64,000 bases of DNA from Clostridiales bacterium (GTDB lineage: Bacteria > Bacillota > Sulfobacillia > RBS10-35), in contig JAHHQG010000032.1 in assembly GCA_018729555.1 (NCBI GenBank), positions 1 through 64,000 on the forward strand, read 5' to 3'. The translations under genes were made by a program, and so were the position numbers. Position 1 is the first letter of the stretch. Each line of letters begins with the position of its first letter. Shown here piece by piece: positions 49,383 through 54,143 of the stretch. Below the pieces are notes generated by a model, which did no database searches, was not told the DNA's origin, and saw nothing but the letters and a program-made list of their open reading frames with translations.

Positions 49383-50228
49383 GTGCTGGCCTGGGCTTTC
49401 GTCTTCCTGCGGCTCTTCGCCATCGGGGCGGAACGGGCCCTTTTAAAACGCTTGGGGAACCGCAGCCCCCATGGCCTCATCCCCGCCTTCTGGTTCTTCG
49501 CCCTCCCGGCCCTGGCCCTCCTCCCCTGGGGGTGGACCCTCTCCGCCAAAGGGGTTCCGTCGGGCGTTCTCCTGGCCCTGGCGACGGCCCTTTACATCCG
49601 GGCCCTGAGGGAAGGGGAGCTCTCTCGGCTGGCCCCCCTCAGCAGCCTGAGCTACGGGTTTCTCTTCCTCATGGATCTTCTCCTGGGAAAGGGGAAGGCC
49701 TGGGGCGCTCCTTCCCTCCTGGGGCTTCTTTTGATCATGGGAGGATCGGCATCCCTCTACCCCAAAGGGCCTTCGTCCCTCCTCTTCCTCCCCCGGCTGG
49801 GCAATCTTCCCGGAGGAAAACCCATGCTCCTTTACGCCTTCCTCCTCGCAACCCAGCGCCAGGTGGATGCCAAGCTTGTCCCGGGGGAAGATCCCCTTTC
49901 CTACAGCGCCTCCGCCTTCCTTACGGTGGCGGTGCTCCTCGGGCTTCTCCTGGGAAGCCGCCATGACCTTCCCCTGGCGGTGGCCTTCGCCCGCCGGAAC
50001 ATCTTCCTCTTGGTGGCGGCGGGCGGCAACAACCTCCTCACCTTCCTCCTCGCCCTCTGGGCCCTCCCCTCCGTGCCCCTCTCCCTCCAGGAACCCCTCA
50101 TGGCCCTCTCCCACGGCGTGACGGCCCTTTTGGCCCGCCTCTTCTTCGGGGAAGACCTCCGGGGACGCCTGGGGGGCATCGGGCTCATCATCCTAGGCTC
50201 CGCCCTGATCCTGGGAGACCCCCGGTAA
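49383..50228 (+). CDS. EamA/DMT-type transporter
   Basis: Ten-TM hydrophobic pattern; C-term [42 protein letters not shown]. Confidence 0.65.
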
Positions 50229-50936
50229 GGGAAGGCCGGGAAGGACCTGAAGGAGGAGATCCACCGCCCGGCGCACCTCCTCGGGCCGGCTCCCGTGGCC
50301 GCCGATCTCGATGAGGAGGGACGGGGGACCCACCTCCTGGTTGTAGGAGCCGGTCTTCACCCAGATCCCCCGCATGACCCGGGGAGCCTCCTCCTGGAGG
50401 CGCTCCGTCAGCCAGGCGGCCAGGTCCAAGTTCTCCCGCCAGGGATAGGGCTGAAGCGGCTTCGATCCCACCACCAATAGGAGGCGAGCCGTCGGCTCCC
50501 CGCGCCAGAGGGCGGTGGCATCTTCGTGGGCGAGGGCATCCCGGTGGACGTCGATGACGAGGTGGGGGCGGAGCTCTTCCACCCGCCGAAGCAAAAGGGG
50601 GCGGACATCCAGGTAAGGGCTGGAGGAACCGCCCGTCTCCCCCAGGGTTTCATCGTGAAAGACCGACCAGCCCTTTTCCCCGAGGCCCTTGGCCAGGAGC
50701 CGGGCCGCCGCCACCACGTGGCAAGGGCCCTCGTCGCCCTTGCGGCAGTCGTAGGTTTCGTACCGGTGGGTGCTGATGATCAGCACCCTGGGATAGCCCT
50801 CGAGGGGCCCGTAGTGGCGAAGGATCCCCGCCTCCACTCGCCCCACCTCCCTTCCCCCAAGGCTGCAGCCCTGAAACACCATGGCCACCGCCAGGAAAAG
50901 AAGGAGTCCAACCCCTTCCCTTGGCCCCACCTTCAC
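50193..50936 (-). CDS. SpoIIP-like N-acetylmuramoyl-L-alanine amidase
   Basis: VLIISTHRYETY; HLVIDVHRDAL; LLLVVGS; MRGIWVKTGSYNQEVGPPSLLIEIGGHGSRPEEVRRAV. Confidence 0.75.
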   Translation of the reverse strand: MKVGPREGVGLLLFLAVAMVFQGCSLGGREVGRVEAGILRHYGPLEGYPRVLIISTHRYETYDCRKGDEGPCHVVAAARLLAKGLGEKGWSVFHDETLGETGGSSSPYLDVRPLLLRRVEELRPHLVIDVHRDALAHEDATALWRGEPTARLLLVVGSKPLQPYPWRENLDLAAWLTERLQEEAPRVMRGIWVKTGSYNQEVGPPSLLIEIGGHGSRPEEVRRAVDLLLQVLPGLPLPGVSQDQGGA

Positions 50937-50957: not shown

Positions 50958-51356
50958 TTATGCGGAAGGCGCCGGAAAGCTCACGAAGGGCTCCTCATGG
51001 GTGCGGATGGAAGTGATGCGGTTCTCGTCATCCACGAAGACCACCCGCGGCCGGAAATCCTTCAGCTCCTCATCGGAAAAGAGGCCCAGGGAAAGGATGA
51101 TCACCTTGTCCCCCGGCTGGAACCGGCGGGCCGGCGGGCCGTTGAGGCAGATGTCCCCCCCGCCCCGGGGCCCCGGGATGGCGTAGGTCTGCCAGAGGTC
51201 GCCGGTGCTGAGGTTGGTGATCTGCACCATCTCGAAGGGCAGGATCTGGGCGGCCTCCATCAGCTCCTGGTCGATGGTGATGCTCCCGATGTAGTGGAGG
51301 TCCGCCTGGGTCACCGTGGCCCGGTGGATCTTTCCCTTGCAGAGGGTCCGCAGCAC
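50958..51356 (-). CDS. panD: Aspartate 1-decarboxylase
   Basis: VLRTLCKGKIHRATVTQADLHYIGSITIDQELMEAAQILPFEMVQITNLSTGDLWQTYAIPGPRGGGDICLNGPPARRFQPGDKVIILS. Confidence 0.95.
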   Translation of the reverse strand: MLRTLCKGKIHRATVTQADLHYIGSITIDQELMEAAQILPFEMVQITNLSTGDLWQTYAIPGPRGGGDICLNGPPARRFQPGDKVIILSLGLFSDEELKDFRPRVVFVDDENRITSIRTHEEPFVSFPAPSA

Positions 51357-51358
51357 CC

Positions 51359-52477
51359 TTATCCTCCTTTCCCGCGGCCGCCCCGGGTCCAGCCCAAAAG
51401 GTAGCGGGCCAGCTCGGGGCGCACGTACTGGGGAGGGGGCGTCACCCCCGCCTGGAGGAGGCGCCCCAACCGCTCCCGATTCATCATAACCTTCTCGAGA
51501 GGGCCGTGGGGGCAGGTGCGGGAGGTGGTGAGCTGGCCGCAGCCGTCGCAAAAGTAGACCTGGAAGGAAAGAAAGGGGGTCACCTCCAGGTGGTGGGCGA
51601 AATGGGAAAGCCACGACTCCAGGAGCCGGTAGTTCCTCCCTCCCCTGCCGCCGGGCACCCCGTCTTCCCCCACGTCGTCGGGGTGGTAGAGGATGCGCCG
51701 GCACCCGTAGTTTCGGAGGACCACGGCGCCTAAAAGGGCCTTTCGCACATGGCCTCCCACAGGCCACCAGGGCCTCACCACCACCTCCACCCTCCTGGGA
51801 GGAAGGTAGCTCTGGAGCACCCGCCGGATGCCTTCCGCCCGCAGCCTGGCCGGAAGGCCGAAGGCATCGTCGTCGTAGAGGAGGAGAAGGACTCCGTCCT
51901 CTTCTTCCAGGACCAGGCGCAAGAGGTATTCGGTATCCCGAAAGAGAGGATCCCTTAGGGCTTTTCCCGCAAGGGACGTCATCCCGCGGCGAAAGAAGAG
52001 CTCCCGCACGGAGTAAGGCTCATCCCCCGCCCAGAGGCGCCGGACCACCTTAAGGGTTCCTCCCAAAAAGACATGGGGATACCTCGGGGGAAACACATCC
52101 TCCGGACCCAGGCAAGGCTTCCAGCGGGGATCGAAGGTGAAGACATCGTGGACCTCCAGAAGGGCGACGGCGTTGCCGTGGGTATCCTGGAGGCCCACCC
52201 GGTCCCCTTCCTTCAGGCGCCGGGCAAAAAGGGGCGGCACCGGCAGCCAGATGGGGTACGGGAAGGGAAGGCCCCCCGGGAGACGCATCTCCTCCACCAC
52301 GCTGCGGCTGGCCTCCCGGTCCATGAATCCGCGGAGGGGGCTCAAGGCCCCCGAAGCCAGGGCTCCGATGATCTGGATGAGGTTTTCCCCCACCGGCATG
52401 GTGACGGGAGGCTCTTCCCAACCCTCGTCGTAGAGGGAGACGAGGGTCCCCCCGTAGGGCGGCAAGAGCTCACCCAC
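51359..52477 (-). CDS. ATP-sulfurylase-like protein lacking canonical catalytic motif
   Basis: N-term LSPLRGFM-type and C-term YFCDGCGQLTTSRTCPHG...RERLGRLLQAGVTPPPQYVRPELARYLL match Sat; QTRNPxHxAHE position reads GKALRDPLFRDTE. Confidence 0.75.
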   Translation of the reverse strand: MGELLPPYGGTLVSLYDEGWEEPPVTMPVGENLIQIIGALASGALSPLRGFMDREASRSVVEEMRLPGGLPFPYPIWLPVPPLFARRLKEGDRVGLQDTHGNAVALLEVHDVFTFDPRWKPCLGPEDVFPPRYPHVFLGGTLKVVRRLWAGDEPYSVRELFFRRGMTSLAGKALRDPLFRDTEYLLRLVLEEEDGVLLLLYDDDAFGLPARLRAEGIRRVLQSYLPPRRVEVVVRPWWPVGGHVRKALLGAVVLRNYGCRRILYHPDDVGEDGVPGGRGGRNYRLLESWLSHFAHHLEVTPFLSFQVYFCDGCGQLTTSRTCPHGPLEKVMMNRERLGRLLQAGVTPPPQYVRPELARYLLGWTRGGRGKGG

Positions 52478-53300
52478 GGACCCTCTTCTCCCGCAGCAAG
52501 CGCCGCAAACTGTCAGCCCGTAAGCCCAGGCGAAGGGCCTCCAGGGAAAGGACCCCCTGGGGCGGGATGTTGCCGAGGTTGGCGTTCACCCCGTGGCGCT
52601 GGAGGAAAAAGAGCTGCTGATGTTTCTGAGGCGCCTCCCAGATGAGCCGCTCCAAAGGCGCCGCTCCTTCCAGGGCCTCCAGCACTTCCTCATCTACCTC
52701 GCCTTTCTCATCATAGAGGCCGGTCCCCCGGCCCGATTCCCGCGCCTCCACCAGGACGAAGCGGGCGCCCGCCTTAAGGTCCTGGTGGATGGCCTCCACC
52801 CACCGGGATAGGGGCAGGCGATCCTCGGGGTGCTTCTGGCCCACCTCCGTCACCACCTCCAGCCCCAGGTCCCGGGCCAAGAGAAGGAGCTCCCGGCGCC
52901 TCCGGAGGCTGAGGGGCACCGTCCCGTCGGAGATCTCCACGAAATCGAAGCCGGCCTTGTGGATCTTTTGTAGGAAGACCTCCGCCTTTCCCTGGACCTC
53001 CGCCGCCTCGAGGAACGTCCCTCCGCAGTAGACGTGAACCCCGTAACTCCGCAAGAGGCGGACTTTCGCCTGGAGAAGCCCCGCCGGGTAAAGGTAAGCG
53101 GTGCCGAAGCCCAGCTTCACAAAGTCGATAAAAGGCCCTGCCAGCTCCAGGAGCTCCCGGGTGCTCTCCAGCCCCAGGCCGGTATCCATCACCATGGTGA
53201 TGCCCGTAAGCCTCGGCTTTTGGGTACGCCCCTTCTGGAGGGGTTTGAGGTCGGGAGCGAAAAACCCCTCTTCCATCCTGCCCTTCCCCCTTTCGGCCAT
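52470..53300 (-). CDS. Phosphosulfolactate synthase (ComA family)
   Basis: GITMVMDTGLGLESTRELLELAGPFIDFVKLGFGTAYLYP...KLLRSYGVHVYCGGTFLEAA...FVEISDGTVPLSLRRRRELLLLARDLGLEVVTEVGQKHPE. Confidence 0.92.
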   Translation of the reverse strand: MAERGKGRMEEGFFAPDLKPLQKGRTQKPRLTGITMVMDTGLGLESTRELLELAGPFIDFVKLGFGTAYLYPAGLLQAKVRLLRSYGVHVYCGGTFLEAAEVQGKAEVFLQKIHKAGFDFVEISDGTVPLSLRRRRELLLLARDLGLEVVTEVGQKHPEDRLPLSRWVEAIHQDLKAGARFVLVEARESGRGTGLYDEKGEVDEEVLEALEGAAPLERLIWEAPQKHQQLFFLQRHGVNANLGNIPPQGVLSLEALRLGLRADSLRRLLREKRVRG

Positions 53301-53375
53301 TACGTTATGAGGGGGGAAGGCTGGCGGTATCTTGGCCGCCTCCGGTATCCTGGGAAGGCGAAAAGAGGTGTGGCC

Positions 53376-54143
53376 TTGTCCTTCACCGTCGCTGTGGCCT
53401 TAAAGCGTCAAGATCTCACTCCCCATGAACCTACCGTCAGCGCCGCCATCCCCTTTCCCTGGGAAAAGGTCCAGGTGGCCGCCGTGGACCAGACCCGGGC
53501 CACCAGCACCATCGTGGCGGCCCTCTATCACGGCGCCAAGGAAGTGCGCCCCTTCGACGACCTGGAACTCTGCCGGAAGGAGAAAGGCAAGGGAGCCGTC
53601 ATCGCCGCAGAGGTGAAGGGCCTTCGGGCCCCGGGCTTTGACCTGGGGAACTCCCCCAGGGAAGTGGCGCAGCACCCCGAAGCCATCCGGGGAAAGGCCC
53701 TCGCCCTTTACACCACCAACGGCAGCAAGACCATCGTAGCGGTGCCGCCTTCGGTGCCCCTTTTCGCCTTTTCCCTCTTCAACGTCACGGCCACCGCCCT
53801 CGCCATGGCCCGCCAGGCCCGGAGCCTTCCCCACGCTGTCATCGCTTGCGCCGGGACGGAAGGGGAAGCGGCCCTGGATGACCTCCTGGCGGCAGGCCTC
53901 TTGGCGGAAACCCTTTTAACCTTGGGAGGGGAGCCCCGAGGCGACGGGGTTCACCTGGCCCTTTCCGTCGCCCGGGCGTGGCAAGGCCGGGAGCTCCCGT
54001 GCCTTTTCCAGAGCCAGGCGGGCCAAAACCTCCTGGCGGTGGGCTTGGAGGAGGATCTTCCCTTTTGCGCCCAAAAGGACCGCTTTCCCGTGGTGGTCAT
54101 GCGGTCCGCCGACGGCGCCTTGAGAAAACTGGAACTGGTATGA
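53376..54143 (+). CDS. 2-phosphosulfolactate phosphatase (ComB family)
   Basis: AAVDQTRATSTIVAALYHGAKEVRPFDDLE...AEVKGLRAPGFDLGNSPREV...ALYTTNGSKTI...NVTATALAMA. Confidence 0.9.
   Translation: MSFTVAVALKRQDLTPHEPTVSAAIPFPWEKVQVAAVDQTRATSTIVAALYHGAKEVRPFDDLELCRKEKGKGAVIAAEVKGLRAPGFDLGNSPREVAQHPEAIRGKALALYTTNGSKTIVAVPPSVPLFAFSLFNVTATALAMARQARSLPHAVIACAGTEGEAALDDLLAAGLLAETLLTLGGEPRGDGVHLALSVARAWQGRELPCLFQSQAGQNLLAVGLEEDLPFCAQKDRFPVVVMRSADGALRKLELV

Follow-up and report, generated by a model that had tools for sequence, protein, structure and literature searches.

What does a homologue of ATP sulfurylase (Sat) do once its catalytic motifs are gone and it is encoded beside genes for sulfonate synthesis? 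The question is raised by a 64,000-nucleotide stretch of DNA (the window) from a Clostridiales bacterium of the GTDB class Sulfobacillia. The first-pass annotation, made from the sequence alone, described a motif-less Sat homologue next to homologues of phosphosulfolactate synthase (ComA) and phosphosulfolactate phosphatase (ComB), likened the group to the yit genes of Bacillus subtilis, and suggested spore-linked sulfonate metabolism because of a nearby SpoIIP-like gene. We refer to the protein as Sat* and find that it is a paralogue of Sat that is real, conserved and degenerate, encoded within a sulfonate operon. This operon includes a gene overlooked in that annotation, directly downstream of Sat*, for a homologue of aspartate decarboxylase (PanD; Table 1).

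Table 1. Features of the Sat* locus, with positions in the window.
Feature	Position	Strand	Basis
comA, phosphosulfolactate synthase	52470..53300	-	TIGR03849 and PDB match 1qwg
Sat* (ATP-sulfurylase fold, catalytic motifs lost), 372 aa, GTG start	51359..52477	-	Pfam, alignment, AF2/Foldseek
Sat* degenerate QTRNPxHRAH segment, codons for ALRDPLFRDT	51932..51961	-	Alignment of 40 Sats and sequence position
Sat* segment in place of GRDHAG, codons for HPDDVG	51668..51685	-	Alignment and sequence position
panD-like, pyruvoyl aspartate-decarboxylase homologue	50958..51356	-	PF02261, TIGR00223, PDB alignments, residue table, tree
comB homologue, 2-phosphosulfolactate phosphatase family	53370..54143	+	PF04029; start inferred from the homologue in a congener (G001)
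SpoIIP-domain protein gene (probably outside the system)	50193..50936	-	PF07454

The 3' end of comA overlaps the start of Sat* by 8 nt, and the panD-like gene begins 2 nt past the Sat* stop. The comB homologue is divergent from comA, with a probable start at ~53370. ComA passes the TIGR03849 equivalog (301.5 bits vs. a cut-off of 280) and matches the structure of the methanogen enzyme (PDB 1qwg, E 3.5e-54). The ComB homologue exceeds the Pfam cut-off (PF04029, 162 bits vs. 26) and is below every NCBIfam ComB equivalog cut-off. The SpoIIP-like gene lies downstream of panD-like on the same strand, and its product passes Pfam (PF07454, 109 bits) but not TIGR02867 (98 bits vs. a cut-off of 123).

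Sat* matches the Pfam ATP-sulfurylase family (PF01747, 79 bits) and PUA_2 (73 bits), both above cut-off, and falls far under the NCBIfam cut-offs for sulfate adenylyltransferase (141 of 387 bits for PRK04149 and 92 of 323 for TIGR00339). An alignment of 40 sequences shows QTRNPxHRAH replaced by ALRDPLFRDT, within the segment that the first-pass annotation gave as GKALRDPLFRDTE, and GRDHAG replaced by HPDDVG. Three motifs that it had not listed (HPLVG, MRYAGPRE, and LSGTxxR) are lost too. A motif shifted rather than lost was rejected because the alignment is colinear across the region. The retained parts were also described correctly: Pfam and the alignment support the PUA-like N-terminus, the zinc ribbon (CxxCG..TCPHG, with the preceding Phe in the earlier FCxxCG form), and PPxYxRPE (earlier PPxxxRPE), along with NYGC. 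In total, 38 near-invariant positions of canonical Sat are kept, including the zinc-ribbon Cys/His. Another 21 positions are invariant in Sat* only, among them D181, R187, L254, D311, and MNRE332-335 (where canonical Sat has LSGT), and several of these lie in or beside the old active-site motifs.

The fold itself appears complete. An AF2 model built from only four sequences was poor (pLDDT 41), and the model used here is a rerun with 40 sequences, which shows a complete Sat fold (pLDDT 88.2, pTM 0.89). All top PDB matches in Foldseek are ATP sulfurylases (E to 7e-29, TM up to 0.84). Sat* therefore shares the PUA-like domain, nucleotidyltransferase fold, and C-terminal zinc ribbon of ATP sulfurylases (PF01747/TIGR00339; PDB 1v47, 8a8d, 1jhd) and differs from them in lacking HxxH, HPLVG, MRYAGPRE, GRDHAG, and LSGT. 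A repurposed Sat fold, as first proposed, is plausible, and the lost motifs suggest that this paralogue of ATP sulfurylase is catalytically dead.

We searched for Sat* in three overlapping genome sets: 101 relatives, the full set of 154 from the class, and 399 members of the phylum. Within these sets it occurs in four genomes only, all drafts, from two families of one order: the genome of the window (G000), its congener (G001; 83% identity to the window copy), and two members of a sister family (G002 and G006; 42%). Profile scores separate these proteins (649-713 bits) from all other Sats (<=296 bits). The order comA-Sat*-panD-like is found in all four genomes, and the comA/Sat* overlap is also conserved across the two families at 42% identity. 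A divergent comB homologue is nearby in G001, G002, and G006 too; in the latter two genomes a class-III aminotransferase gene lies upstream of comA, followed by the comB homologue in the opposite direction. The SpoIIP-like gene adjoins the operon in the window's genus only, and in G002 and G006 the panD-like gene is followed by succinate-dehydrogenase genes and no SpoIIP. Conserved linkage thus does not support the spore link, and the comA-Sat*-panD-like context points to a pathway for C3/C2 sulfonates more than to spores in particular.

All five active-site motifs are replaced in all four proteins. The Arg of QTR is the sole motif residue common to the four, and one His of HxxH is present in G002 and G006. 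The former pocket differs between the two subclades, with ALRDPLFRDT vs. LTRHVIHRDG at the QxRNPxHxxH position (FxxT vs. HxxG) and HPDDVG vs. TPELVG at GRDHAG. Each of the four genomes also has an intact cysH-sat pair; in the genome of the window it is on another contig, and its Sat has QTRNPVHRAH and GRDHAG.

Sat* is under purifying selection. Between G000 and G001 its dN/dS is 0.14-0.22, compared to 0.13-0.20 for canonical Sat, and with a reading frame open in four genomes this led us to reject a pseudogene. Between the two families, catalytic-domain identity is 38% for Sat* vs. 68% for canonical Sat, PUA-like domain identity is 43% for both, and identity of the C-terminal zinc-ribbon region is 59% vs. 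73%. These values indicate that constraint has moved off the catalytic domain without vanishing.

Sat* forms a monophyletic group in a maximum-likelihood tree (support 100), on the basis of which its origin as a recent copy of the Sat of its own genome was rejected. Sat* groups as sister to the Sat portion of a Sat-ComA fusion in genome G013 (support 76), a relation that is provisional because of the long Sat* branches. This fusion is a single 680-aa ORF (L101:5310-7352, minus strand) in which both halves, a canonical Sat and ComA, are above cut-offs. Here Sat is physically joined to ComA and keeps all catalytic motifs, whereas Sat* is a separate, degenerate protein. A cysH-like ORF is located just upstream of the fusion.

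The PanD-like protein of the window scores 147.5 bits against PF02261 and 131 bits against TIGR00223 (cut-off 106). It shares the fold family of PanD (PDB 1ppy, 2c45) and the Gly-Ser processing site, but has Leu in place of Arg54. In aspartate decarboxylase (ADC), the beta-carboxylate of aspartate is bound through a salt bridge with Arg54, and L-cysteate strongly inhibits the normal enzyme (PMC3461031). Arg54 is absent from all 15 comA-linked PanD-like proteins, where Leu or Trp takes its place; PDB alignments and a residue table show that these proteins keep Lys9, His11, Tyr58, and the Gly24-Ser25 site (Trp-Ser in G001). Among 80 homologues, 15 of the 38 PanDs with Leu, Trp, Phe, or Met at position 54 are comA-linked, vs. 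none of the 42 with Arg or His, in counts that ignore shared ancestry. Leu54 PanDs occur away from comA as well. The class contains a third PanD clade with His54 (22 sequences, support 100; L116:9934-10329, L163-L165, and others), never linked to comA. As a separate observation, the substitution of the otherwise invariant Gly24 by Trp in G001 (L033:3143-3541) may be an assembly error or a real change in this MAG.

The Leu54 protein is the only PanD in G000, G001, G002, and G006, and panC is present in all four, so the PanD-like protein of the window may simply be the ordinary pantothenate enzyme. By contrast, the three genomes of family f28 yielded no panC, and their PanD-like copy is therefore unlikely to act in the usual pantothenate route.

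Class-wide searches for ComA and PanD found comA and a PanD homologue about one gene apart in ten more genomes, and directly adjacent in G018. The gene between them in the ten encodes a SerA-like 2-hydroxyacid dehydrogenase (three genomes from one family, seven from a second; L098, L099, L104, and L105-L111), with a histidine-phosphatase gene upstream in six. We consider these comA-dehydrogenase-panD-like clusters a candidate taurine pathway independent of Sat*. Elsewhere, comA occurs with the dehydrogenase and a canonical sat in G089 and G074 (in G074 with cysH also), and with cysH and sat in G118. In L105-L111 the comA linked to panD-like is a divergent paralogue (~240-260 bits), and many of these genomes encode a second, typical comA (~290-300 bits) elsewhere.

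Sat* occupies the slot of the dehydrogenase. Its substitution for this enzyme was judged unlikely in G000, G001, and G002, because these carry an unlinked dehydrogenase; in a tree with weakly supported deep nodes, the three group together among the comA-linked ones. G006 yielded no dehydrogenase belonging to the comA-linked group.

These gene contents suggest an operon for the synthesis of C3/C2 sulfonates (phosphosulfolactate, sulfolactate, sulfopyruvate, cysteate, and perhaps taurine). The enzyme families are present, and each substrate, like the product taurine, is predicted. Sulfite would be supplied by the canonical CysH-Sat pair encoded elsewhere and joined by ComA to phosphoenolpyruvate, yielding phosphosulfolactate, which ComB would dephosphorylate to sulfolactate. 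The unlinked 2-hydroxyacid dehydrogenase could then oxidize sulfolactate to sulfopyruvate, and an aminotransferase could convert this to cysteate, although no dedicated aminotransferase gene linked to the operon was identified in the window. Finally, the PanD-like enzyme without Arg54 may decarboxylate cysteate to taurine. In its strongest form, this proposal envisages a new route by which bacteria convert PEP and sulfite via sulfolactate and cysteate to taurine, with a PanD-derived pyruvoyl cysteate decarboxylase and the Sat* fold in a new catalytic or obligate partner role; as a whole, we consider it doubtful.

Given that Sat* has no catalytic motifs yet is kept by selection, it has probably either become a helper protein or taken on a new enzymatic task. 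We tentatively favor the former, with a confidence somewhat short of even: Sat* may be a pseudoenzyme that arose from a ComA-linked Sat and has been retained, without catalysis, as a partner or regulator (ComA being the most likely target) in an operon leading from sulfite to sulfonates. Its ancestor would have been a Sat working with ComA, and the present protein would act on, or together with, the translationally coupled ComA. Motif loss, an intact fold, purifying selection, conserved gene order, the ComA-fused Sat as tree sister, and the presence of the other enzyme families count for this reading. Counted against it are the sister support of only 76, the long branches, the restriction to four draft genomes, and the Leu54 protein being the sole PanD where panC is present, as well as the Leu54 PanDs away from comA, the failure to find the dehydrogenase in G006, and the lack of a linked aminotransferase gene in the window.

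An enzyme with a new job is a real possibility, if a less than likely one. In that case the pocket of Sat* would bind another anion (phosphosulfolactate, sulfolactate, sulfopyruvate, or cysteate) and catalyze an unknown step of the sulfonate pathway. The strong purifying selection, the position in a slot held by a pathway enzyme in related clusters, and the 21 Sat*-specific invariants are consistent with this. However, pocket residues differ between the two subclades, a pattern not typical of an active site common to both, and conservation is lower in the catalytic domain than on either side of it. Moreover, the one step that is obviously vacant, the oxidation of sulfolactate, already falls to the unlinked dehydrogenase in three of the four genomes.

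Two further explanations are distinctly unlikely, neither more so than the other. Sat* could be a regulatory or hetero-oligomeric subunit of canonical Sat (or CysH) that tunes the supply of sulfite to the operon, in line with the intact cysH-sat pair in every Sat* genome and with the best conservation in the PUA-like and zinc-ribbon regions, which are usually outside the catalytic site. But Sat* is not co-located with canonical sat, and both linkage and fusion point to ComA instead. Alternatively, the genes could be chance neighbours, with panD-like being the usual panD of pantothenate synthesis and Sat* a degenerate gene that has nothing to do with the pathway. The TIGR00223 score of the PanD-like protein and its status as the sole PanD alongside panC fit this explanation, which does not account for the recurrence of a comA-X-panD-like order in several families (including the f28 genomes), the replacement of Arg54 in every comA-linked copy, or the purifying selection on Sat* and its linkage across families. 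Lastly, ATP sulfurylase activity through an unusual active site is very improbable, since apart from the shared Arg and the single His of G002 and G006 the motif residues are lost, differently in each subclade, and these genomes also encode a canonical Sat.

If Sat* does partner ComA, it represents a sulfate-activating enzyme turned helper in sulfonate synthesis. Our searches of the open-access literature returned nothing relevant on Sat pseudoenzymes, on ATP sulfurylase in connection with phosphosulfolactate, or on comA in combination with PanD or taurine, and catalytically dead Sat proteins under selection are little described. The comA-dehydrogenase-panD-like clusters in turn predict that Bacillota have a cysteate decarboxylase of the pyruvoyl type and a taurine route starting from sulfite. 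Annotating comA-linked PanD homologues as enzymes of pantothenate synthesis, or Sat* as a sulfate adenylyltransferase, calls for caution.

The closest known arrangements differ in informative ways. The yitCD and yitBA-yisZ genes of B. subtilis also place ComA/ComB homologues alongside sulfate-activation homologues, and the Sat homologue yitA is grouped there with yitB, of the PAPS-reductase family. The close parallel drawn earlier is not supported: in the genome of the window cysH-sat is on another contig, Sat* is an additional, degenerate paralogue, and a panD-like gene is part of the operon. B. subtilis spores store sulfolactate at 5% of spore dry weight (PMC517825). Entry into coenzyme M synthesis in methanogens (ComA/ComB/ComC) is expected to share the first reactions, namely those of ComA, ComB, and a sulfolactate dehydrogenase, but clusters of the type seen here differ in having a SerA-like dehydrogenase and a linked PanD-like amino-acid decarboxylase.

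A precedent for altered Sat domains is the ATP sulfurylase-APS kinase of Thiobacillus denitrificans (PDB 3cr8), in which HxxH aligns with HRAQ and whose Sat domain we take to be inactive; unlike Sat*, it is fused to APS kinase and has no ComA linkage. Four other Sat homologues (G048:C219, G465:C78, G144:C223, and G146:C106) score low against the Sat* profile, at 80-112 bits, and may be degenerate too.
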